Positions 6,672 to 17,719 of a stretch of DNA of 33,108 bases are shown piece by piece (within the stretch, counting starts at the first letter, position 1; each line of letters opens with the position of its first letter). The stretch comes from Aureispira sp. (GTDB lineage: Bacteria > Bacteroidota > Bacteroidia > Chitinophagales > Saprospiraceae). The DNA is taken from assembly GCA_024222455.1 (NCBI GenBank), contig JAAEPD010000660.1, positions 1 to 33,108 on the forward strand, written 5' to 3'. Position numbers and translations under genes: made by a program. The notes beneath the pieces are model-generated. The model was not told where the DNA came from and searched no databases. It was given only the letters and a program-made list of their open reading frames with translations.

Positions 6672-7481
6672 ATGTCAACAGAAAAAAGTAAACTCAACCT
6701 ATTCAATATCATATTTTTAGCACCTGCACTCATCTTAGCATTAGATTTGTCTACCCAAGTTTTTTCTGCCTTTGGGGCAATGGATAGCAATATCGTTCTA
6801 GGAGACCAACCTACTCTTGCAATAGGACAGCCTAAATTATTCCAACAGAACTCAGATGGAACAATGCGTTTTATGACAAAAAATGACATTGTAGATGGTA
6901 ATCAAACCTTTGCTATATCTGTAGACAAGATGAATGTATTTTACATTGGGGTAGATAATCCTATCTCTATTGCATCAAGTGTTCCTACACAAAACCTAAG
7001 TATTAATGTAGCGGACAACAGTGGAATCAGCATAGAAAATCAAGGACCAAGCAGCTATATTGTAAATGCTACACAACCAGGATCTGCAACAATCAATATA
7101 ACCAATAGAGCAACCAATAAGACCTATCCTTTCCAGTTTAGAGTAAAGCGAATTCCTGATCCAATTGCTCGTTTAGGCAGAAAGACAGATGGCGTTATGA
7201 AATCAGGTGAATTCAAAGCACAACGAGGATTAACTGCTTGGTTAGATAATTTTGATTTTGATGCTAAATGTAGTATACAATCTTATACTATGTATTACAC
7301 TCGCAAGCGTCAAGATCCTGTTGAGATACACAGTACAGGAGGACGTTTTACAGGCAGAATTGCTACAGCAATTACATCTGCTAAACCTGGCGATCAATAT
7401 GCTTTTGTCAATGTCAAAGCACGTTGCCCAGGAGATAGAGCTGGACGTAGAATCAATGGACTTTCTTTTCAGATCAAATAA
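6672..7481 (+). CDS. Shortened GldM paralogue A (TM-D3-D4)
   Basis: From the ATG at 6672 the product has 269 residues; an upstream in-frame extension to 6618 puts polar residues ahead of the TM start and was rejected. A single TM helix lies at about 10-30 (NIIFLAPALILALDL). A short linker follows, then a GldM third domain from about residue 79 (FAISVDKMNVFYIGVDNP, compare AVSANKMNVMYIGVENP in the full GldM at 8515). The fourth GldM domain runs from about 158 to the end, with both conserved cysteines (FDAKCSIQS, ARCPGD) and the family ending LSFQIK. The helical D1 and the D2 domain are absent, as is the PRQ...MY motif of the motor helix. It is probably an inner-membrane-anchored periplasmic protein that cannot span the periplasm as GldM does. 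A terminator follows. Confidence 0.85.
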   Translation: MSTEKSKLNLFNIIFLAPALILALDLSTQVFSAFGAMDSNIVLGDQPTLAIGQPKLFQQNSDGTMRFMTKNDIVDGNQTFAISVDKMNVFYIGVDNPISIASSVPTQNLSINVADNSGISIENQGPSSYIVNATQPGSATINITNRATNKTYPFQFRVKRIPDPIARLGRKTDGVMKSGEFKAQRGLTAWLDNFDFDAKCSIQSYTMYYTRKRQDPVEIHSTGGRFTGRIATAITSAKPGDQYAFVNVKARCPGDRAGRRINGLSFQIK

Positions 7482-7522
7482 GTACATACTTATAGAATGT
7501 CAGGTATTATTTTTTTTTAAGT

Positions 7523-7550
7523 AATAAAAGTAATACTTTTATTTTTTTTT
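7523..7550 (+). terminator. Terminator after GldM paralogue A
   Basis: AATAAAAGT (7523-7531) pairs perfectly with ACTTTTATT (7535-7543) around a three-base loop, followed by a T run to 7550. This suggests paralogue A is a separate transcript from B. Confidence 0.75.
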
Positions 7551-7585
7551 AAACTTAACTTAAAAGTGATAAAACAGTAATTATT

Positions 7586-8410
7586 ATGCTAACAGACAAA
7601 AACAAACTTAGCCTCATTTTTTTAGCTCCAGCACTTATTTTAGCTTTAGACCTATCAATGCAAATATTTAGTACTTTCACCACAATGGACATTAATAAAA
7701 CTATCCATTCTTCTCTACCATCAGATCAAGTAACACTATTGCAAAATAGTCCTGATGGACTCATGAGTTTCACTAGTAATGATGTGATAGATAATTATAA
7801 CACCGTAACAGTTTCTCCAGATAAAATGAATGTTTTTTATCTTGGAGTAGACAATCCTATTTCGATAAACACTAATATTCCTAAAGAAAATATACAAGTT
7901 ACATCAGCAGACACCAACCTTACAATAAGCAAGACATTGAAAGATCGTTATTTTGTTAGAGTTCGTAAGCCTGGTTTCGTTTCTTTTCATGTAACCAATA
8001 GTGTTACAGGAATAAAATATCGTTTCCAATTTAGGGCAAAACGAATTCCTAGTCCTATTGTTCATTTAGGTAACTATTCGTCGAGTTTCGGTGGTTTCGA
8101 TAGATATACAGGTGGTGTTATGAGCGCTAACCAATTCAAAGCACAAGTAGGCTTAACAGCTTCGTTAGATAATTTTGACTTTGATGCTAAATGCAGTATT
8201 AAATCATTCACTATGTACCATACACCCAAAGGACAAGAACCAATAAAAATTAAACAAACACAAACAGGTGACGTTTTTTCTCCTGCTGTGCTAAAAGCTA
8301 TTCAAGCGGCTAAACCTGGTGACCAGTATACTTTTTTTGATGTAAAGACCATTGTCCCTGGCAATAGAGCTTCTAACCTAGCCAATAGTCTTTCTTTTAT
8401 TATTAAATAA
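7586..8410 (+). CDS. Shortened GldM paralogue B (TM-D3-D4), second D4 cysteine lost
   Basis: The 274-residue product has the same plan as paralogue A. A TM helix at about 9-28 shares FLAPALILALDLS, D3 begins near 73 (VTVSPDKMNVFYLGVDNP) and D4 near 153. D4 has a small insertion rich in Gly/Ser/Tyr (about 160-173) compared with A. The first conserved D4 cysteine is kept (FDAKCSIKS), but the second position reads KTIVPGN instead of ARCPGD, so the likely disulfide cannot form. D1, D2 and the motor-helix motif are missing. It is a tandem duplicate of A that has diverged. It lies 104 bases upstream of the full-length gldM at 8515 with no clear terminator between, so the two may be co-transcribed. 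Confidence 0.85.
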   Translation: MLTDKNKLSLIFLAPALILALDLSMQIFSTFTTMDINKTIHSSLPSDQVTLLQNSPDGLMSFTSNDVIDNYNTVTVSPDKMNVFYLGVDNPISINTNIPKENIQVTSADTNLTISKTLKDRYFVRVRKPGFVSFHVTNSVTGIKYRFQFRAKRIPSPIVHLGNYSSSFGGFDRYTGGVMSANQFKAQVGLTASLDNFDFDAKCSIKSFTMYHTPKGQEPIKIKQTQTGDVFSPAVLKAIQAAKPGDQYTFFDVKTIVPGNRASNLANSLSFIIK

Positions 8411-8514
8411 TTCAAAATAACTAAGACAAAACAGAATACAACTGAGGCAAACCAACAAGATTGATTTATCAACACTGAACTGTTTTTTATAACCTTTTCA
8501 AAAAACCTGTGAAT

Positions 8515-10149
8515 ATGTCTATTCCAAAGGAACCAAGGCAGTTGATGATCAACCTAATGTATTTAGTTTTGACTGCTATGTTGGCACTTAATGTGTCCGC
8601 AGAAATTATCAACGCATTTTTCTCTTTAGATAAGGGAATCGAAAGAACAAACAAAACTGTTGTCAAAAGTAGTGGCAAAATAGCGGAGGACATGGCTTAT
8701 GTGGCCAAAACCAAAACTCAATATTTGCCCTTAGTAGAGACAGCTAAACAATTACAAGAGATCACCAAAGAATTTAATGCCTATATAGATGGGCTGAGAG
8801 ATCGGATGGTCGAAGAATCTGGAGGAGCTTATACGCTGGAAGAGGCAACAGCTAATGGGCATCCTGAGTTAGAAGGCAAACCAAAAGGAAAAAAAGACAA
8901 AGATACTCCACAACGTATTTTTGTAAGTGGTGACTATGGTGGACAAGGGAGCAAAACACCTGAAGGACCTGTGCTCATGCAAAAAATCATGGATACTAAA
9001 GCTCAATATTTAGCTTTACTCAAAGAGCTTTGGGTAAGCAGCCCAATAGAAGGAACTTCTTTTGAGGATCCAAACAAACAAGCAACCACTTTAGATACAC
9101 TAGGAGCTGATTTGACTCTAGGAGTAGACAATGAGCATGAAGCTACTGGTAAAAGTTGGGAAGAGTTTAATTTTGGACATATGCCTGTAGCAGCTGTTTA
9201 TCCTATGTTGCGCAAGTTTCAAAACGATGCTCAAATGACCGAAATTGCGTTAATCAATTTCTTAGCTAAACAAATGGGAACAACTAGTGCTCCTATCAAT
9301 AGCTTTGAGGTAGTGGCCTTCTCTCCTAAATCTTATATCATGTTGGGAGAAGAATACAATGCAGAAATCGCATTAGGGGCTTTTTCTGACAAAGGTAATA
9401 TTGTGGGAAGTGTTAATGGAAAGAAAGTCCCAGTCAAAAATGGGAAAGCGATCTATTCTGCTAAGCCTACCAGTCTTGGAGAGAAAAAATACACTGCTAG
9501 TTTTAATGTTAAAAATCCTATAAATGGAAACAATGAAGTTGTTAAAAGAGACTTCTTCTATGAAGTAGGCCAACGTCAAATTGCTGTATCTGCCAACAAA
9601 ATGAATGTAATGTACATAGGAGTAGAAAATCCTATAACAGTAGCAGCCGCTGGTATCAAAACCAGTAATCTGAGTGTAACTGCTAGTAATGGAACTAGCC
9701 TAAAATCAACTGGTGGGGGAAAATTTATTGCTACTGCAAAAAAGATAGGTCCAACAACTGTCAATGTAAAGGATAAGTCTAATGGAAAAAGCTTCCCTTT
9801 TACGTTTAGAGTAAAACGAATACCTGATCCTGTAGTCCGTTTGGGCAAAAAACAGGATGGAATCATGAAATCGGGTGCATTTAGAGCACAAGGAGGATTG
9901 ATACCTTGGTTGGATAATTTTGATTTTGGAGCTAGATGCACTATACAGTCCTATACACTCTACTGGACCCGCAAACGCGAAGATCCTGTAGAATTGACCG
10001 GAACTAGAGGCAAATTTACAGGTAAGATCAAAAACGCAATATTAGCAGCTAAACCAGGTGACCAATATGCCTTTGTCAATGTACGTGCACGCTGCCCTGG
10101 TGATATTGCTGCTCGACAAGTTAATGGTCTTTCTTTTCAAATTAAATAA
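8515..10149 (+). CDS. gldM: Full-length GldM, gliding/T9SS motor subunit (copy 1)
   Basis: From the ATG at 8515 the product has 544 residues, close to typical GldM/PorM size; a GTG two codons upstream is less likely. GldM pairs with GldL in the proton-driven inner-membrane motor that powers gliding and type IX secretion and reaches across the periplasm to the GldK/GldN ring. The N-terminus MSIPKEPRQLMINLMYLV keeps Arg8 and Tyr16, equivalent to Arg9 and Tyr17 of Flavobacterium GldM, in the helix that inserts into the GldL ring. D1 (helical) runs to about 250, D2 about 261-350, D3 about 355-432 and D4 about 433-544, with cysteines in GARCTIQ and ARCPGD. No gldK or gldL lies beside it. A strong terminator follows. 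Confidence 0.93.
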   Translation: MSIPKEPRQLMINLMYLVLTAMLALNVSAEIINAFFSLDKGIERTNKTVVKSSGKIAEDMAYVAKTKTQYLPLVETAKQLQEITKEFNAYIDGLRDRMVEESGGAYTLEEATANGHPELEGKPKGKKDKDTPQRIFVSGDYGGQGSKTPEGPVLMQKIMDTKAQYLALLKELWVSSPIEGTSFEDPNKQATTLDTLGADLTLGVDNEHEATGKSWEEFNFGHMPVAAVYPMLRKFQNDAQMTEIALINFLAKQMGTTSAPINSFEVVAFSPKSYIMLGEEYNAEIALGAFSDKGNIVGSVNGKKVPVKNGKAIYSAKPTSLGEKKYTASFNVKNPINGNNEVVKRDFFYEVGQRQIAVSANKMNVMYIGVENPITVAAAGIKTSNLSVTASNGTSLKSTGGGKFIATAKKIGPTTVNVKDKSNGKSFPFTFRVKRIPDPVVRLGKKQDGIMKSGAFRAQGGLIPWLDNFDFGARCTIQSYTLYWTRKREDPVELTGTRGKFTGKIKNAILAAKPGDQYAFVNVRARCPGDIAARQVNGLSFQIK

Positions 10150-10182
10150 TTTAAATAATAGATTTTTTTTAGTAGCTTTAGT

Positions 10183-10222
10183 AGCAAGGAACTATTATTA
10201 ATAGAGTTCCTTGCTCTTTTCT
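10183..10222 (+). terminator. Terminator after GldM copy 1
   Basis: AGCAAGGAACT (10183-10193) pairs perfectly with AGTTCCTTGCT (10205-10215), followed by CTCTTTTCT. It closes the unit containing paralogue B and gldM copy 1. Confidence 0.88.
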
Positions 10223-10263
10223 AATTGTTTATTCTTAAGATTTTATACTAAAAAAAACTCCTT

Positions 10264-10578
10264 ATGGATACTCCAACTAATGATGAAGAATTAAAACGAA
10301 TCGCCGAATTAGAAGAAAAATTAAAAACGTTAGAGGAAGAAAAACGCATAAAGGAGTTAGAAGAAAAGCTTGCAAAACTAGAGGCTCAGAAAGAAGAAAA
10401 GGAAAACACTAAAAAGAAATTAAGGTTTGGACTACTCACTGGCATTTTTGGAACTTCTTTAATTGGTACCATCATTGCCATAGTAGTAGCAATAACAGTT
10501 GTAGCATCAGTTGTTGTCGCTGGTTTAGGAGGTATTTTAGCACTAGGACTCAGCATTTTTGGTGGTGCATTTAAATAA
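10264..10578 (+). CDS. Small coiled-coil membrane protein
   Basis: The 104-residue product starts with a highly charged coiled coil (about 5-55; ELEEKLKTLEEEKRIKELEE) and ends with a glycine/alanine/valine-rich hydrophobic region (about 58-104) that could form one or two membrane helices. No signal peptide is present, and the coiled coil would be cytoplasmic if the usual positive-inside rule holds (KKKLRFG precedes the membrane part). I recognise no family. It is nine bases upstream of the next coiled-coil membrane gene, so they form an operon. Both sit between GldM-related genes, which hints at a role near the motor but does not prove one. A decayed copy of its 3' end appears near 10999-11050. 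Confidence 0.7.
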   Translation: MDTPTNDEELKRIAELEEKLKTLEEEKRIKELEEKLAKLEAQKEEKENTKKKLRFGLLTGIFGTSLIGTIIAIVVAITVVASVVVAGLGGILALGLSIFGGAFK

Positions 10579-10587
10579 TAGGCAATT

Positions 10588-10998
10588 ATGACAAATAAAG
10601 AAAAAATAGATACTTTAGAACAAAAGATAGCAGCATTTGAAGAGCAAGAAAAAAATAATAACCAAAAAAAAATAGATGCTTTAGAACGGAAAATTTCGGA
10701 TTTAGGACAAAACCCTTCTAAAAAGCCTACAACAGCAATTAAGAAGTTATTTACTATAAACTCTGAGACCCTTAAAATTAGTGTGATTACAGGTGCCAGT
10801 TATGGTTTTATTACAGCATTTTCAATAAATAATATATTTGTTTGGGCTGTACCTATTATAATTATAATACTTACAGCTCTAAAGTTCTACTACAAAAAAC
10901 AAAATAAACAAGTTTGGGCATTAGCAGCATATAGAGTATCAATATACTGGTGCTTCTATGGTTTTTTACTATTTCTTCTATGGAGGTTTCCTTTTTAA
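10588..10998 (+). CDS. Coiled-coil protein with two membrane helices
   Basis: The 136-residue product begins with a coiled coil (about 4-47; KIDTLEQKIAAFEEQEKNNN) followed by a basic linker and two hydrophobic stretches (about 66-95 and 115-134). A charged loop KFYYKKQNKQVWALAAY lies between them. No known domain is recognised. The plan matches the upstream 104-residue protein (soluble coiled coil, then membrane part), so the two may act together. A broken paralogue follows at 11052-11366. The gene lies within the GldM-related cluster but has no sequence relation to GldM or GldL. Confidence 0.7.
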   Translation: MTNKEKIDTLEQKIAAFEEQEKNNNQKKIDALERKISDLGQNPSKKPTTAIKKLFTINSETLKISVITGASYGFITAFSINNIFVWAVPIIIIILTALKFYYKKQNKQVWALAAYRVSIYWCFYGFLLFLLWRFPF

Positions 10999-11050
10999 GG
11001 ATTTTTAGTACTTCTTTGGTTGGTACTGGCTCATTCAAATAATAATAAGT
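10999..11050 (+). pseudogene. Remnant of a duplicated 3' end of the 104-residue coiled-coil gene
   Basis: GGATTTTTAGTACTTCTTTG followed by GTTGGTACTGGC resembles the membrane-encoding part of the 104-residue gene (around 10441-10470, GGCATTTTTGGAACTTCTTT). It then joins directly to TTCAAATAATAATAAGTTATGAC, which resembles that gene's stop and the junction to the next gene. The middle appears deleted. The similarity is short, so the call is tentative. Confidence 0.4.
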
Positions 11051-11051
11051 T

Positions 11052-11366
11052 ATGACTAATAAAGAAAATTTCTAGTTAAAAAAAGAACAGCCACAAAATA
11101 ATGGCTCAAAGACGATCAAAGTTGCCATTAGCTCCTTATACGTCTATTTTCTATGCATACTTTTAGGTTCTCTAATTGAACCTAATTTTAGTGGTTATTT
11201 CATCATATTGGTACCTTTGGTGTTAGTTGTTCTTATTAGTTTAGGCATTGTCCTAAAAATTAAAAAGAACGATGATTGGGCCAAAGCTTCTTTTACAGTC
11301 CTTAAATATTGGGGCATTTACGCCACTTTTCTTTTTCTACTCATTTACTTTGAAATAATTGTTTAA
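11052..11366 (+). pseudogene. Broken paralogue of the coiled-coil/two-helix membrane protein
   Basis: ATG ACT AAT AAA GAA copies the start of the 136-residue gene (MTNKE), but codon 8 is TAG. The same frame then continues open for 96 codons to a TAA at 11364-11366. The read-through product has two hydrophobic segments and a charged loop, and its C-terminal half aligns by eye with the intact neighbour: LVPLVLVVLISLG against AVPIIIIILTALK, and LKYWGIYATFLFLLIY against YRVSIYWCFYGFLLFL. The coiled coil is nearly all lost. It is either a pseudogene or a sequence error at the TAG; no good alternative start is seen within the frame. Confidence 0.65.
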
Positions 11367-11387
11367 ACACTCCTAAAAAGACTCTAC

Positions 11388-12443
11388 TTGCTTTTTCAAA
11401 GCCCTCATAATGCATCCTCCCCCCCCAAGAATCAACGTATTTTACTAATAGTATTACCCCTAATTATAATACTATTAGGCTATAATACCTACCTAGCTTT
11501 TTCTAAAATGAGTGCAGATAAGGCACCTGTAGAAGAAAAAATCTCCTTTCCACCACATTCTCATGAACAAGAACTGATGGAGTTCAATTCTAGGCCTATA
11601 ATTTCAAAAGACACCAGCTATAACGTACAATTTGCCTATGGAAAGAGAATGTATGACTTAATGGGCCTTCGCATTTTTGCAAATGGGAAGCAATTGCTCC
11701 CATCTTATGATTCTATACATGGCACAATGTATTCTTTCTCCACTAGACCTACTAAAATAGGAGAACAAAGCATTTCTGTTGAAGTTATATTCCTGAATCC
11801 TCACACCCATCAAATGGATACCATTCAACGAGACTTTTACTTTGAAGTTGACATCCCCAAATACATGGTTGGGCTAAATAAAAATAATGTACTCTACAAG
11901 GGGATCGAAAATCATATCACAGTTACCCCCTTTGGTATAGTTGGAGGAAATACATCTCTTAAAGTACAAGGATGTAGAGCTAAGCTCCGAAAAAATGGGA
12001 AAATGCGTTCCTCTATTCATGCTTTAGATACAGGCAATCTACATTTAATATATCAGACAAGAGGTATGAAGCCCAAATGGGAAATAGACTCTTTTCATTA
12101 CAAAGTAGTAGAGCTACCCAATCCTGTTGCTCGAATAGCAGGGCAACAGAGTGGTATTATCCCTAGTTCTGAATTTAGCAAAAATAAACAGCTAAGCTTA
12201 GCCTTAGAATCAGTAGAAACAGACAGTACTTGCAAACTCCAATCTTACAAACTTATTTATACCTCTAGCCAAAAAGATGCTCAAATCCTAAAAGGTAAAA
12301 ACCTGAAATTTAAAGGGAAAATACTGCAAGCAATTCAAGCTGCTCAGCCCAAAGATCAGTACCATTTTATAGATATTATGGCCTTATGCCCTGCTGATAC
12401 CAAAGCTAGAAGAATTAGCAGTCTGGTGTTTGTGATTAAATAA
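11388..12443 (+). CDS. Shortened GldM paralogue D (TM-D2-D3-D4), possible phase-variable start
   Basis: The open frame from a TTG at 11388 encodes 351 residues. A TM helix at about 18-38 (ILLIVLPLIIILLGYNTYLA) is followed by a linker, a GldM D2-like region (about 70-160; TRPTKIGEQS then RDFYFEVD), D3 (about 162-245, with an extra cysteine, VQGCRAK) and D4 (about 246-351, cysteines in STCKLQS and ALCPAD). The helical D1 is absent and the PRQ motif is not conserved. The start is odd. By comparison with paralogue E the natural start is the ATG at 11410, but an eight-C tract (11419-11426) leaves that ATG one base out of frame and it ends after 12 codons; nine Cs would restore it. So the gene is either translated from TTG or switched off in this sequence. 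Confidence 0.75.
   Translation: MLFQSPHNASSPPKNQRILLIVLPLIIILLGYNTYLAFSKMSADKAPVEEKISFPPHSHEQELMEFNSRPIISKDTSYNVQFAYGKRMYDLMGLRIFANGKQLLPSYDSIHGTMYSFSTRPTKIGEQSISVEVIFLNPHTHQMDTIQRDFYFEVDIPKYMVGLNKNNVLYKGIENHITVTPFGIVGGNTSLKVQGCRAKLRKNGKMRSSIHALDTGNLHLIYQTRGMKPKWEIDSFHYKVVELPNPVARIAGQQSGIIPSSEFSKNKQLSLALESVETDSTCKLQSYKLIYTSSQKDAQILKGKNLKFKGKILQAIQAAQPKDQYHFIDIMALCPADTKARRISSLVFVIK
11419..11426 (+). repeat. Eight-C homopolymer just after a start codon
   Basis: The tract begins seven bases after the ATG triplet at 11410-11412. With eight Cs the ATG frame reads MHPPPPRINVFY and stops; with nine it reads MHPPPPKNQRILL and joins the long frame, matching MHPENSKKQRVLL of paralogue E. Such tracts often slip during replication. 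Confidence 0.7.
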
Positions 12444-12469
12444 TTTTTATCTGATTCAAAACCTAAGTC

Positions 12470-13504
12470 GTGCACCCTGAAAATTCCAAAAAACAACGTG
12501 TTTTACTGATGTTATTATCCCTAGTCACGATACTGCTAGGATATAATACCTATTTAGCTTTTTCTAAAATAAACACAGATAAGGCTCCTATAAAAGAAAC
12601 GAGTCCCTTTCCACCACATTCTTATGAACCAGAACTGATGGAATTCAATTCTAGGCCTATTATCTCAAGAGACACTAGTTACAACGTCCAATTTGCCTAT
12701 GGCAAAAGAATGCACGATATCATGGGCCTTCACATTTTTGCAAATGGCAAACAATTGGTCCCCTCTTATGATTCTATTCGTGGTATTATATATCCTTTCT
12801 CCACTAAACCTACCAAAGTGGGAGAACAGAGTGTTTTTGTTGAAACCATTTTTCTAAATCCTCATACCCACCAAATGGATACTATACAACGAACTTTCTA
12901 CTATACCTCTGGATTTTCAAAACGCATGGTTTACCTTCATAAAAATAAAATACTCTATAAAGGCATAGAAAACCCTGTCATTCTTACTCATTTTGGTATA
13001 GGCCCAAGTAGCCTATCTTTTTCGGTAAGTGGATGTAAATCTAATATCAAAAAGGCTGGAAAAAACCTTTTCTATGTTCATGCTTTAGATACTGGCCACC
13101 TAACCTTATTACATCGTAAAGTTCATAGAAACCCGCAACGCAAAGTAGACTCTTTCCGTTATAAAGTAGTAGAACTCCCCAACCCTATTGCCCGAATAAA
13201 TGGTAAACAAAGTGGTGTTATTTCCAGTGTCAAATTTAAAAGATATAAACAGCTAACCCTAGACCTAGAATCGGTAGAAACGGATAGTGTTTGCAAACTC
13301 CAATCTTACAAACTTATTCATACTCCAAACCTAGAAAAACCTCAGATTATAAAAGGTTCTAGCCTAGAGTTTAAAGGGAAAGTACTCAAAGCTATTCAAG
13401 CAGCTTACCCTAAAGACCAATACCATTTCATAGACATTATGGTCTTATGTCCTGGTGACACTAAAGCTAGAAGAATTAGCAGTTTGGTGTTTATGGTTAA
13501 ATAA
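12470..13504 (+). CDS. Shortened GldM paralogue E (TM-D2-D3-D4)
   Basis: The 344-residue product starts at GTG 12470, exactly where paralogue D has its ATG, so the GTG is well supported. It has a TM helix (about 11-30, LLMLLSLVTILLGYNTYLAF), D2 (about 62-152), D3 (about 153-238, with the extra cysteine SGCKSN shared with D) and D4 (about 239-344, cysteines in SVCKLQS and VLCPGD). It is a recent tandem duplicate of D: long stretches match at DNA level, such as ATTCTAGGCCTAT and CAAATGGATAC. It lies 26 bases after D and probably shares its transcript. D1 and the complete motor motif of full GldM are absent. A membrane-anchored periplasmic role is inferred. Confidence 0.83.
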   Translation: MHPENSKKQRVLLMLLSLVTILLGYNTYLAFSKINTDKAPIKETSPFPPHSYEPELMEFNSRPIISRDTSYNVQFAYGKRMHDIMGLHIFANGKQLVPSYDSIRGIIYPFSTKPTKVGEQSVFVETIFLNPHTHQMDTIQRTFYYTSGFSKRMVYLHKNKILYKGIENPVILTHFGIGPSSLSFSVSGCKSNIKKAGKNLFYVHALDTGHLTLLHRKVHRNPQRKVDSFRYKVVELPNPIARINGKQSGVISSVKFKRYKQLTLDLESVETDSVCKLQSYKLIHTPNLEKPQIIKGSSLEFKGKVLKAIQAAYPKDQYHFIDIMVLCPGDTKARRISSLVFMVK

Positions 13505-13633
13505 ATTCTAATTTACTGTGTAACCTTTTTCCATTTTTGCGTTATACTAAGAAAAAAACGACCTTCTGCATAATAGAATAGGCCTTTATAGTAGTTATTA
13601 TAATACACTCTTTCTTTTCTAAACCCCTGTGCT

Positions 13634-15274
13634 ATGTCCTTTGCCAGAGAACCTCGCCAACTCATGATCAGCCTCATGTACTTGGTTTTGATAGCGATGC
13701 TAGCCTTAAATGTCTCTTCTGAGATCATTTATGCCTTTTATCGTATAGACGAAACTATGGAGCGCAGCAATGTTATCTTAGAAAAGACCCGAGATGATTT
13801 GGTAGCCGAATTAGAAGAAATCAGCCAAACAAAGACTCAATATATTCCTCTCATAGACGCTATGAAAGAGATTAGGACGATTACTAAGGAGTTTTCCAAT
13901 TATGTAGATACCTTGCGCCAAGCATTAGTTACAGAATCTGGAGGTTACTATACCTCTCAGGAAACTGTTAATGATCCAGTATTGGTAGGCAGACCTAAAT
14001 ATTCAAAGAATAAAGATGTTCCTCAACGAATGTTTGTAACAGGTGATTATGGTACCCAACAACGACTCCCAAAAGCCATAGAATTAGATAGAAGGATTCA
14101 AGAAACTAATCAAAAATACATAACACTCCTAAATAGTCGTTGGGACAATGGAGGAATAAAAGCAACTATATTTGCAGATGAACGTAAGCAAGAGGCTACT
14201 ATAGCAAATGTATTAGAAGATATAGCTCTTGAAGGTTCTGAAAGCTATACACCAAGCGAAGGTGAGCATCGTTCTTGGGCTGAATATAACTTTGGACATA
14301 TGCCTGTAGCAGCTATCTACCCCATGCTTCGAAAGTTTCAGAATGATGCAAAAGTTACAGAGTTTAATCTCATCAATTTTTTAGCCTCTCAAATAGGCAC
14401 AAGCTGTTGTTTTTGCTATGAACAGTTTGATGTCTTTGCTGCAAGCAGCCAAAATTATATTCTACTAGGAGATACATACGAATCTGATATAGCCTTAGGT
14501 GCTTATAGCAAACATAAAAAAGGCTCTAGAGTACTGGTAAAGGGTAAAGAATTGCTAATACAAGATGGAAAAGCAATGTATTCGACTCGACCAACTCGAT
14601 TGGGTAAACACAGCTATCATGTAGACTATGAAATCATCAATCCACTTACTCAGGAAATAGATACAGTTGTCTCTAGAGATTTCTATTTTGAGGTTGGGAT
14701 GGGTAATGCAACTGCTTCTGCTGACAAAATGAATGTAGTCTATATTGGTGTCAATAATCCGATCACAATCGTAAAACCTAAAAGCTATACTCAAGTCTAC
14801 CTAGAGGGGGAAGGCAGCATAAATATAAATGAAAGTGGCAAATATATAGTCAAAGTTAACCAGGCTGGCAAAACAAATTTGGTCGTAGCCAACCCAAGTA
14901 CTGGACACAAAATTCCTTTTCTTTTTTATAAAAAATCAATCCCTCAGCCCAGTCTACAATTAGGAGGATACACTGGAAATGATGGTGAGATAAATTCTAA
15001 TTTATTCAAACAGCAAAAAAGGTTATTGGCTGTACTCAAAGATTTTGATTTTGATGCAAAATGCCATATCCAGTCCTTCAACTTATATCATATTCCTAAA
15101 AGGGAAGATGCTGTAGAATACACCAACAATGGAAGTAACTTTTCCACAGAAGTACTTCATGCTATACAACAAGGAAACACTGGTGACCAATACATTTTCA
15201 CCAATGCTAAAGCCTTATGTCCTGGAGATAAAGCAGGACGTTATATTAGCAGTCTATCCTTCCAAATCAAATAA
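13634..15274 (+). CDS. gldM: Full-length GldM, gliding/T9SS motor subunit (copy 2)
   Basis: The 546-residue product starts MSFAREPRQLMISLMYLVLI and keeps Arg8 and Tyr16 of the GldL-binding helix, as in copy 1. D1 runs to about 255 (with WAEYNFGHMPVAAIYPMLRK, nearly identical to copy 1), D2 about 266-355 (unusual TSCCFCYEQ just before it), D3 about 358-434 and D4 about 435-546, with cysteines in DAKCHIQS and ALCPGD. The protein is intact and diverged from copy 1 mainly in D2-D3, so it is an old paralogue rather than a recent copy. It probably forms an alternative motor stalk with a GldL encoded elsewhere. It is the nearest full GldM upstream of the gldN genes. Confidence 0.92.
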   Translation: MSFAREPRQLMISLMYLVLIAMLALNVSSEIIYAFYRIDETMERSNVILEKTRDDLVAELEEISQTKTQYIPLIDAMKEIRTITKEFSNYVDTLRQALVTESGGYYTSQETVNDPVLVGRPKYSKNKDVPQRMFVTGDYGTQQRLPKAIELDRRIQETNQKYITLLNSRWDNGGIKATIFADERKQEATIANVLEDIALEGSESYTPSEGEHRSWAEYNFGHMPVAAIYPMLRKFQNDAKVTEFNLINFLASQIGTSCCFCYEQFDVFAASSQNYILLGDTYESDIALGAYSKHKKGSRVLVKGKELLIQDGKAMYSTRPTRLGKHSYHVDYEIINPLTQEIDTVVSRDFYFEVGMGNATASADKMNVVYIGVNNPITIVKPKSYTQVYLEGEGSININESGKYIVKVNQAGKTNLVVANPSTGHKIPFLFYKKSIPQPSLQLGGYTGNDGEINSNLFKQQKRLLAVLKDFDFDAKCHIQSFNLYHIPKREDAVEYTNNGSNFSTEVLHAIQQGNTGDQYIFTNAKALCPGDKAGRYISSLSFQIK

Positions 15275-15415: not shown

Positions 15416-15802
15416 ATGAATGCCACCAAGAAAATCTTGGCTAGCCTAACATTGCTATGCCTAATCGTTAGTACAAGTTTTGCACAAAAAAAAGAAGCTA
15501 AACCAGCAGTAGACGCTATGAAAGCTGCCGAGTTTAAAATTTACAACAGTCTAGCTGCTGTACTCAAAGACTTTGATTTTGAAGCTAAGTGCTCAATTCA
15601 ATCTTTTACGCTACACTACATTCCCAAAAGAGAAGATGCTATTGAGCTAAAAGGAATGGGAGCTTATTTTACTCGTACAATTTCACGTGCAGTACAAGCC
15701 GCCAAAAGAGGTGATCAATATGCGTTTACTGACGTAAAAGCACGTTGTCCTGGAGATATTGCAGCTCGTCGTGTCAATGGATTAACCTTTCAAATAAAAT
15801 AG
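15416..15802 (+). CDS. Secreted D4-only GldM-like protein
   Basis: The 128-residue product has a cleavable signal peptide (MNATKKILASLTLLCLIVST, then SFAQ) in place of the GldM membrane anchor. After a short linker, residues about 42-128 are a complete GldM fourth domain: LAAVLKDFDFEAKCSIQS, HYIPKREDAIEL, QAAKRGDQYAFTDVKARCPG and the ending LTFQIK. Both conserved cysteines are present. In the motor, D4 is the part that meets the outer-membrane GldK/GldN ring. A free periplasmic D4 could occupy or adjust that contact; this is inference. It is followed by its own terminator and lies just upstream of gldN, its likely partner. Confidence 0.85.
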   Translation: MNATKKILASLTLLCLIVSTSFAQKKEAKPAVDAMKAAEFKIYNSLAAVLKDFDFEAKCSIQSFTLHYIPKREDAIELKGMGAYFTRTISRAVQAAKRGDQYAFTDVKARCPGDIAARRVNGLTFQIK

Positions 15803-15816
15803 TTTTTCAATCCAAT

Positions 15817-15851
15817 ATCTGTAGGAGTTAACAGCTCTTACAGATTGTTTT
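15817..15851 (+). terminator. Terminator after the D4-only gene
   Basis: ATCTGTAGGAG (15817-15827) pairs over 11 positions (one G-T) with CTCTTACAGAT (15835-15845), followed by TGTTTTT. It separates the D4-only gene from gldN copy 1. Confidence 0.8.
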
Positions 15852-15920
15852 TCTGACAATACAGACACGATTCCAACCTAAAACCTATACATTTTATTAA
15901 ACCTCAAAATTTTAGAAATT

Positions 15921-16796
15921 ATGAAAGCATGTATTCAATTTTTAAGACCATTTGCTCTTGTGTTTGGTCTAATCGCTTTTACTTCCACCATAGGATTTAG
16001 CCAAGACAATCCTAATATTACAGAATCTGGCAATACAGATATTCCTGCACCCCGAGACAACTTCTATGATCGTTATATCTATAAAGAAAAGCGAGTTTTA
16101 GACTATGACCATATCCATGAAAAAGATGTGTTTTGGGAAAAACGAATTTGGCGCTTAGTAGATGTTCGTGAAAAAATGAACCATATTTTCACCAACGAAA
16201 AGGCCTACTTTATCAATATAATTTTAGATGCTGCAAAAAAAGATGACATCAGCCTCTACCATGTTTTTGATGATCAATTTACGCAACCTATGACTCAAGA
16301 AGAGCGTCAGACAATTGGAACCTCTGTTGATACTATTATCACATTCAATCCTGATACTTTTGATGAAGAAATTCAAGTAGTAGTCAATGAACTGGACCCT
16401 ACTGATGTAAAAAAATATAGACTCAAAGAAGTTTGGTATTTTGATGAAGAGACTTCTTCTATGGGGGTTCGTATTTTGGGTGTAGCTCCAATTATTGATC
16501 GTTATGATGATAATGGTAACTTCCTAAACTCTGGACCAATGTTTTGGGCGTATTATCCTGAGTTGAGAGAAACATTAGCTAGAAGCGAAGCATTTAACCC
16601 ACATAATGATGCTGCTCGTATGAGTTGGGAAGATATTTTTGAAGCACGCCTATTCTCTAGCTATATTGTAAAGGAGTCTAATGTTTATGATCGTAGAATC
16701 AAAGACTACAAAACTTCTCCTATTGATGTATTGCTAGAAGCTGATAAAATCAAAAATGAGGTATTCCATTTCGAACATGATCTTTGGTCTTACTAA
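15921..16796 (+). CDS. gldN: GldN, gliding/T9SS ring protein (copy 1)
   Basis: The 291-residue product has a signal peptide (MKACIQFLRPFALVFGLIAF, then TIGFSQ) and the whole GldN/PorN family region: YIYKEKRVLDYDHIHEKDVF, WEKRIWRLVDVREKMNHIF, LKEVWYFDEETSSMGVRILG and MFWAYYPELRETLAR. GldN is periplasmic and forms, with the lipoprotein GldK, a large ring at the outer membrane that contacts GldM D4 and is needed for type IX secretion. gldN normally follows gldM in a gldKLMN operon; here it follows gldM copy 2 and the D4-only gene, but no gldK or gldL is present. It shares an 80-base identical block with copy 2. Confidence 0.93.
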   Translation: MKACIQFLRPFALVFGLIAFTSTIGFSQDNPNITESGNTDIPAPRDNFYDRYIYKEKRVLDYDHIHEKDVFWEKRIWRLVDVREKMNHIFTNEKAYFINIILDAAKKDDISLYHVFDDQFTQPMTQEERQTIGTSVDTIITFNPDTFDEEIQVVVNELDPTDVKKYRLKEVWYFDEETSSMGVRILGVAPIIDRYDDNGNFLNSGPMFWAYYPELRETLARSEAFNPHNDAARMSWEDIFEARLFSSYIVKESNVYDRRIKDYKTSPIDVLLEADKIKNEVFHFEHDLWSY

Positions 16797-16873: not shown

Positions 16874-17719
16874 ATGAAAGCCTTTAACTATTATACCATA
16901 CTCCTCATCAATCTACTTATTTTAGGAACTAGTTCTATAATCTATGGCCAAAGCACCAACACTAAAGCAGCCCCTTTAGACAACTTCTACCAACGAGAAT
17001 TACTACAAGACAAGCCTGTATTAGCATACGACAATACTCATGAAAAAGATGTCCTATGGGAAAAACGAATTTGGAGAGAGATAGAAGTACGAGAGAAAAT
17101 GAATCATCATTTTATTCACGAAAAAGCTTACTTTATCAACATCTTGTTAGATGCTATTAAAGACAAAAAAATAACAGCTTACTACCCTATTCGTGATGAC
17201 TTCAGCTCTCCTATTCCTTACGAAGAAGCTAAACTACTAGGAATTACAATAGATACAGTTATATGTAGTTTTGGTTGTTTTGACGATTATGTATTGGAAA
17301 CAGTCCACAATGAACTAGATCCTAGCGATGTCAAAAGATATAGACTAAAGGAAGTTTGGTATTTTGATGAAGAAACATCTTCTATGGGGGTTCGTATTTT
17401 GGGTGTAGCTCCAATTATTGATCGTTATGATGATAATGGTAACTTCCTAAACTCTGGGCCAATGTTTTGGGCTTATTATCCTGAATTGAGAAAAACACTA
17501 GCTAGAACTGAGGCATTCACCTCCAATAATGGTAGTGGGCGTATGAGTTGGGATGATATTTTTGAAGCGCGCCTGTTTTCTAGTCATATCGTCAAGGAAT
17601 CTAACACTGCTAATCGCAGAATCAAAGATTACAAAACTTCTCCAATTGATATGCTTTTAGAAGCTGATAAAATCAAAAATGAAGTATTCCACTTCGAACA
17701 TGATCTTTGGTCTTACTAA
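16874..17719 (+). CDS. gldN: GldN, gliding/T9SS ring protein (copy 2)
   Basis: The 281-residue product has a signal peptide (MKAFNYYTILLINLLILGTS, then IIYGQ) and the same conserved blocks as copy 1 (HEKDVLWEKRIWREIEVREK, LKEVWYFDEETSSMGVRILG, the ending FHFEHDLWSY). It differs mostly in the middle (about 95-135), where copy 2 has SFGCFDDYVLE in place of TFNPDTFDEEIQ, adding a cysteine. Because part of the gene matches copy 1 exactly at DNA level while flanking parts differ at many silent sites, gene conversion is likely. It probably forms alternative or mixed rings with copy 1. A strong terminator ends the whole cluster. Confidence 0.92.
   Translation: MKAFNYYTILLINLLILGTSSIIYGQSTNTKAAPLDNFYQRELLQDKPVLAYDNTHEKDVLWEKRIWREIEVREKMNHHFIHEKAYFINILLDAIKDKKITAYYPIRDDFSSPIPYEEAKLLGITIDTVICSFGCFDDYVLETVHNELDPSDVKRYRLKEVWYFDEETSSMGVRILGVAPIIDRYDDNGNFLNSGPMFWAYYPELRKTLARTEAFTSNNGSGRMSWDDIFEARLFSSHIVKESNTANRRIKDYKTSPIDMLLEADKIKNEVFHFEHDLWSY

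Follow-up and report, generated by a model that had tools for sequence, protein, structure and literature searches.

The window, the whole stretch of DNA analysed here (33,108 nucleotides), carries seven D4-bearing genes on the + strand: two full-length gldM genes, two coding for a TM anchor with D3-D4, two for a TM anchor with a D2-like part and D3-D4, and one D4-only gene. The last of these, which is the subject of this report, starts 141 nt past the stop of a full-length gldM and ends 118 nt ahead of gldN1, with gldN2 next. The features of the locus are as follows.

6672..7481, + strand: GldM paralogue with a TM anchor and D3-D4 (PF12080 match at 7155-7475; D3 by similarity; start chosen by eye)
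7586..8410, + strand: GldM paralogue with a TM anchor and D3-D4 (Pfam)
8509..10149, + strand: another full-length gldM (Pfam)
11388..12443, + strand: GldM paralogue with a TM anchor, a D2-like part (by eye) and D3-D4 (D4 above the cut-off, D3 weak)
12470..13504, + strand: GldM paralogue with a TM anchor, a D2-like part (by eye) and D3-D4 (D4 at 22.9 bits, just below the cut-off, and at 26.1 bits, above it, in a second search)
13634..15274, + strand: full-length gldM with D1-D4 and a motor-type TM, directly upstream of the D4-only gene (Pfam)
15416-15802, + strand: D4-only ORF, 128 aa, ATG start, intact
15416..15484, + strand: residues 1-23 of the D4-only protein, a signal peptide (judged by eye on the translation)
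15485..15799, + strand: mature part of the D4-only protein, a single GldM D4 domain that lacks the first strand (PF12080, AlphaFold2 model, PorM/GldM structure match)
15542..15544, + strand: codon of Y43, at the glutamine site of the GldM motif FKAQxG (D4 alignment counts)
15620..15637, + strand: codons for residues 69-74, the hairpin loop IPKRED, which corresponds in alignment to the S460-bearing loop of PorM
15817..15855, + strand: terminator-like hairpin (15817-15845, 13 pairs) and T-rich tail, in the gap between the D4-only gene and gldN1
15921..16796, + strand: gldN copy 1 (PF19841, E 5.6e-73)
16874..17719, + strand: gldN copy 2 (PF19841, E 2.2e-68)

The sole Pfam family above cut-off in the D4-only protein is GldM_4th (PF12080; E 7.5e-15; 56 bits against a gathering cut-off of 24.6 bits), with residues 32-127 covering profile positions 16-113 of 114. 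The N-terminus has the features of a type I signal peptide, with K5 and K6, a hydrophobic core and S-F-A before Q24, and no lipobox is seen at C15, which is preceded by T-L-L (both by eye); the mature protein is thus 105 residues long. A GldM motor protein has an N-terminal TM helix and D1-D4, whereas here PF12080 alone scores above cut-off and a signal peptide is at the N-terminus; the product is a D4-domain protein, not a GldM. The earlier note had read the signal peptide as replacing the TM anchor, which agrees with these N-terminal features, and had described the protein as nothing but D4. D4 is indeed the only domain, but it is not complete: the D4 of GldM is given as residues 406-513 (PMC5790014) and the structural match begins at 416, so the first strand of D4 is absent, as is the linker from D3.

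The note's placement of the gene ahead of two gldN genes also holds, although a terminator-like hairpin intervenes. This hairpin has a z-score of -3.75, and none of 200 shuffles folds as well; the terminator scan gave four sites in total, which is within chance (2.5 +- 1.7). No + strand hairpin was listed by the scan between the upstream gldM and the D4-only gene. Because the hairpin precedes gldN1 and none follows gldM, the D4-only gene is more likely to be cotranscribed with the upstream gldM than with gldN, as judged from sequence.

Across 6672-15274 the GldM paralogues form a ladder of shortening arms, from full length through TM with D2-like and D3-D4 and TM with D3-D4 to D4 alone. Two small proteins (10264-10578 and 10588-10998) lie inside the gldM cluster; each begins with a charged, coiled-coil-like segment and contains hydrophobic TM stretches, and neither has a Pfam family above cut-off. 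No gldK or gldL is present in the window, and a canonical gldK-gldL-gldM-gldN run is found on another contig of the source genome (C87, locus L040), where gldK and gldL were assigned from their size and position and from their lipoprotein-like or TM appearance. PF12080 has eight matches above cut-off in the source genome (seven in the window, one on C87) and two below. There are also eight GldN matches in this genome (G000), on C87, C99, C304, C466 and in the window; the two on C99 are ~12 kb apart, and C466 has two GldN stretches within one 404-aa ORF.

Distribution of D4-only genes

The D4 domain itself is common, with PF12080 present in 38 of 40 relatives and the window protein matched in 285 of the 298 genomes of its family. 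Homologues consisting of D4 only, for which the earlier note had proposed a search, were found in G141/G215, G262, G077 and G579/G580; the lack of any homologue, one of the two outcomes that the note had named as refuting its idea, thus did not occur. Among the matches listed for the 298 family genomes, D4-only frames occur in at least five: the source genome, G077, G262, G141 and G215, of which G141 and G215 are 99.7% identical across 17.4 kb. G141 has the order gldK, gldL, gldM1, gldN1, gldM2, D4-only (131 aa), D3-D4, three other genes and gldN2, and G262 is organized in the same way but with two D3-D4 genes and no intruding genes. No D4-only gene is present in the gld clusters of G296 and G021, two of the five genomes of the genus (g22) to which G141 and G262 belong. 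In G077 the D4-only gene (130 aa), the nearest sequence relative, is located away from gldN.

A contig scan of relatives, with 80 of 98 retained, gave 84 ORF-borne matches and five frames of 180 aa or fewer, of which three run off contig ends and two are true D4-only genes (L144, Bacteroidetes bacterium 43-16; L147, Taibaiella sp. MAG-390). The Taibaiella-like pair, G579 and G580, has a gldK-gldL-gldM-[D4-only]-gldN operon in which the D4-only gene (136 and 141 aa) lies 18 nt past gldM and 49 and 51 nt ahead of gldN; each genome has two D4 matches, the D4-only protein and GldM. Among the matches listed for the 394 genomes of their family, a D4-only gene of this kind occurs in these two only. 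The window and G579/G580 thus have their D4-only gene between gldM and gldN, whereas G141 and G262 have theirs between gldM2 and gldN2; that of G077 lies outside a gldK-N cluster.

The arrangement at gldM/gldN is rare. A class-wide sample of 99 genomes, into which 115 D4 rows were entered and from which the window's own contig was left out, includes 90 rows in which a GldN follows D4 on the same contig and strand; in 89 of these, from 87 genomes, it is no more than 5 kb away. Between the end of D4 and the beginning of the GldN core the median distance is 187 nt and the longest 362 nt, and none of the 89 pairs has room for a D4-only gene. In a second set of 148 distinct gldM 3' ends followed by gldN, the median gap is 28 nt, and D4-only genes occupy the gap in the window, L094, L099, L095, L205 and L206; this set is biased, with many loci fetched by D4 queries and the window counted twice. 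Ten further regions with short D4 frames have no D4-only gene between gldM and gldN; three of them (L241, L242 and L243) contain a gldM/gldN end, in which gldM is either split or truncated at the edge of the contig. As it is absent from most of the gldM-gldN pairs examined, the D4-only protein is hardly a core part of the T9SS.

G296 has a 97-aa GldM D1 fragment between gldM1 and gldN1 (L097, 8614-8907), apparently a decaying duplicate. G141 codes for three GldM-like, lipoprotein-looking proteins without a motor TM helix (L104, 6929-10856), of which one has D1-D4 (566 aa) and the other two, of ~340 aa, correspond to D1-D2, for the 343-aa protein on BLAST evidence only.

Origins and selection

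A tree of 69 D4 domains (92 columns, with many weak forks), in which the named relatives are mostly Saprospiraceae, places the window copy sister to the gldM at 13634-15274, with support (90/80) that is not decisive. Plain identity fails to single out this upstream gldM as the clear nearest parent, since it shares 56% with the window copy and three other D4s of the source genome share 55-59%. The G141/G262 pair (100/100) falls among g22-type GldMs, the G579/G580 pair (100/100) is in a clade with its own GldMs (99/98), and the G077 copy is on a long branch apart from the other D4-only proteins. A single ancient D4-only family, with all six copies as one clade, is rejected (AU p 7.1e-5), as is a clade of the window copy with G579 and G580 (AU p 7.0e-6); the test does not reject the window copy with G141 and G262 (p 0.34) or with G077 (p 0.17). 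Because the AU tests reject one clade, D4-only genes have had at least two independent origins, perhaps more. The signal peptides of the window and G077 copies are alike, with none of 465 null N-termini scoring as high in what is one of several after-the-fact comparisons, and these two genes may form one family, though the best tree separates them.

The signal peptides also point to a route of origin for the Taibaiella-like pair. The D4-only proteins of G579 and G580 have a signal peptide that matches that of the neighbouring gldN product at 12 of 24 and 10 of 24 residues, ungapped; among 466 signal-peptide-like N-termini, only the sister genome's D4-only protein and gldN product score as high or higher, and the corresponding DNA aligns with E values of 3e-4 and 8e-4. 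If the gldM-3'/gldN-5' junction were duplicated in tandem, the result would be gldM-[gldN signal peptide + D4]-gldN in one step, and this would explain both the make-up and the place of the D4-only gene in this operon. A gldN-derived signal peptide was rejected for the window copy, since 427 of 462 signal-peptide-like N-termini score at least as well as gldN1 and 296 of 462 at least as well as gldN2; the figures are 26 of 462 for the gldN on C87 and 15 of 462 for the better of the two on C99. The signal peptides of the G141 and G262 copies show no match to those of their own gldN products. The signal peptides of the window, G141 and G262 copies probably have another origin, or one since erased, and because they are unlike those of gldN, support for the junction-duplication origin is limited to G579/G580.

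The D4-only genes are under purifying selection in two other species pairs, G579-G580 and G141-G262; no same-genus genome of the window organism was found, and the selection figures come from these pairs. By simple Nei-Gojobori counts, with dS of 1.2-1.7 so that the ratios are rough, dN/dS for G579-G580 is 0.150, compared with 0.086 for gldM, 0.081 for gldN and ~0.08 for the last 110 codons of gldM; for G141-G262 it is 0.133, compared with 0.146 for gldM1, 0.076 for gldM2 and 0.051 for gldN2. The Taibaiella-like D4-only gene is the fastest of its operon (dN 0.179 versus 0.080 for gldM and 0.076 for gldN), and is constrained, but less so than its neighbours. The window copy shares 55-59% aa identity with the D4s of its own paralogues, with pN of 0.27-0.28 and pS of 0.68-0.77, near saturation.

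That the gene is a by-product of repeated gldM/gldN junction duplication, kept by chance or drifting to loss, is the least probable of the readings considered: many gldM duplicates lie in the cluster, G296 has its D1 fragment at the same kind of junction and the Taibaiella-like copies have the gldN-like signal peptide that such a duplication would give, but an exported D4 remains intact after synonymous saturation, dN/dS is 0.13-0.15 in two pairs, and the same product has come from independent origins. That it appeared independently at one and the same junction raises the likelihood of a function.

Predicted fold and possible role

The window protein is predicted to have the D4 fold of PorM and GldM. 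An AlphaFold2 model of residues 24-128 (pLDDT 85.4, pTM 0.75), made with an alignment of 99 D4 domains that are mostly GldM D4s, matches PorM 419-516 (6ey6; Z 11.7, 98 residues, rmsd 2.5) and GldM 416-513 (6ey4; Z 10.2, 96 residues, rmsd 3.3), whereas the best unrelated chain has Z 5.4; Foldseek concurs, and the match is beyond chance. In the model the protein's own N-terminus makes a short strand.

PorM S460 cross-links to PorN A241 (PMC12421860), and the corresponding residue of the D4-only protein is K71 in the IPKRED loop. The alignment to the PorM chain that sets K71 opposite S460 is ungapped but weak (E 1.6; query 71 on chain residue 244, which is PorM 460), and a profile alignment (E 6.7e-11) gives the same pairing. 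The loop is identical in the gldM just upstream. The residue at position 71 is K or R in all six D4-only proteins, while K is present in just 106 of 184 other D4s; D74 is kept in five of the six, and R72 is N in G579/G580. Since this residue differs from the serine of PorM and varies among D4s, the alignment shows no conserved chemistry at this position. Position 43 is Q in 158 of the 184 other D4s and Y in seven, and is Y in four of the six D4-only proteins (window, G077, G579 and G580), spanning at least two origins; Q-to-Y is thus a recurrent change, in rows that are non-independent. C59 and C111 covary as expected of a disulphide, with both positions Cys in 99 of the 184 other D4s, neither in 83 and mixed in two; the pair is kept in the window copy and is present in four of the six D4-only proteins.

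The earlier note took D4 to be the end of GldM that meets the GldK/GldN ring, and published two-hybrid data bear out the GldN side of this claim and not the GldK side: isolated PorM D4 is reported to suffice for PorN without self-interaction, and to be insufficient for PorK, which needs D2-D4 (PMC5790014). The same paper gives a PorM-PorN KD of ~1 uM, and the periplasmic part of GldM is reported also to contact GldK, GldN and GldO in F. johnsoniae (PMC8986121). Published models place one D4 of the PorM dimer in the cavity between adjacent PorN (PMC12421860; PMC12635249), although the AF3 prediction for ring-bound PorM is of weak confidence (PMC12635249). The ring usually has 33 PorKN units (PMC12635249) and is modelled with 18 PorLM motors (PMC12421860), and thus docking clefts are left free in these models. 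Because isolated PorM D4 suffices for PorN and K71 aligns with S460, contact of the D4-only protein with GldN is plausible by analogy.

Our preferred reading, held tentatively and at a little short of an even chance, is that the product is a soluble, periplasmic, monovalent D4 that occupies the GldN docking cleft as a competitor, spacer or brake on motor-ring coupling. The protein would be exported, lose its signal peptide and stay monomeric; it would then bind to the docking cleft of GldN that otherwise receives a GldM arm, and its occupancy would set the number of docking sites open to motor arms. Lacking D1-D3 and the TM helix, it would be unable to reach GldL, to dimerise by D2/D3 strand swap or to carry force. 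Counted for this reading are the D4 identity and fold, the recurrence at gldM/gldN, the independent origins, the dN/dS values, the 55-59% identity kept at near-saturated synonymous differences, the two-hybrid results for isolated PorM D4, the alignment of K71 with S460, the free clefts of the published ring models and the kept C59-C111 pair. Counted against it are the hairpin before gldN1, the G077 copy that is not beside gldN, the absence of D4-only genes from G021 and G296, the faster evolution and the loss of R72 in G579/G580, the variable K71 and the weak confidence of the AF3 ring model. A bolder version, in which Bacteroidota evolved a soluble motor-tip decoy at least twice via gldM/gldN junction duplication, tuning coupling, with Q-to-Y43 a recurrent adaptation to life without D3, seems rather doubtful.

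The same contact could serve an assembly chaperone, a free D4 that caps newly exported GldN until ring entry and then yields to the dimeric GldM arm. The binding of isolated D4 to PorN (PMC5790014) fits such a role, as does the gene's location, immediately ahead of gldN in G579/G580 and of two gldN genes in the window, where the hairpin nevertheless parts the gene from gldN1. The great majority of gldN genes manage without such a partner, with no room for one in the 89 class-wide pairs, and G141 and G262 keep an ordinary gldM1-gldN1 alongside; for these reasons the competitor is preferred, and a chaperone is considered unlikely.

It is quite improbable that the D4-only protein is instead a ligand for a partner other than GldN, with a role in binding or signalling. 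Proteins outside the T9SS core do contain D3-D4 and D4-like modules, among them an M56 + GldM_3rd + GldM_4th protein beside a Penicillinase_R repressor (L045) and divergent D4-like proteins that are exported and coded for at a distance from T9SS genes, some beside LytTR two-component genes. The window copy, however, resembles GldM D4 far more closely than these proteins do, and it is located in a gldM/gldN cluster.

Occupancy of GldN by a free D4, the preferred reading, bears on how many GldM/PorM arms hold on to the GldKN/PorKN ring or track, and on the way in which these arms attach and release. A natural monomeric D4 would be a ready-made probe and possible inhibitor of the GldM-ring contact, with binding easy to test because the mature protein has only 105 residues. 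No report of a D4-only GldM was found in the literature, which is weak evidence of absence, and we know of no description of one.

Related D4 proteins

The closest known relatives are the D4 domains of GldM and PorM (PF12080; 6ey4, 6ey5, 6ey6 and 7cmg), which share with the window protein the sequence family, the fold over PorM 419-516/GldM 416-513 and the S460-loop position; the window protein differs in being free and exported, in lacking the TM, D1, D2, D3 and the first strand of D4, and in having Y for the Q of FKAQxG. The anchored paralogues of the window (TM with D3-D4, with or without the D2-like part) are likewise GldM-derived, keep D4 and lack D1, but unlike the D4-only protein they retain the membrane anchor and D3, a domain through which GldM dimerises by strand swapping. 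Small exported D4-like proteins (L048, L051, L052, L235, L237 and L239) likewise consist of a signal peptide and a D4-like domain in 120-160 aa, but their matches are mostly to the latter half of the D4 profile (positions ~42-111), and they are not near gldM/gldN in the stretches examined.

Two of these half-D4 genes (L048, 5214-7566; L051, 4940-7334) are divergent from adjoining histidine kinase and LytTR regulator genes, assigned by Pfam in L048 and by look in L051. In L045 (5630-8489) and L046 (3776-6578), an M56 BlaR1-type peptidase ends in GldM D3-D4 and adjoins a Penicillinase_R repressor and a TM + D3-D4 protein (by Pfam in L045, by similarity in L046); this peptidase could be a sensor reading the state of the T9SS.
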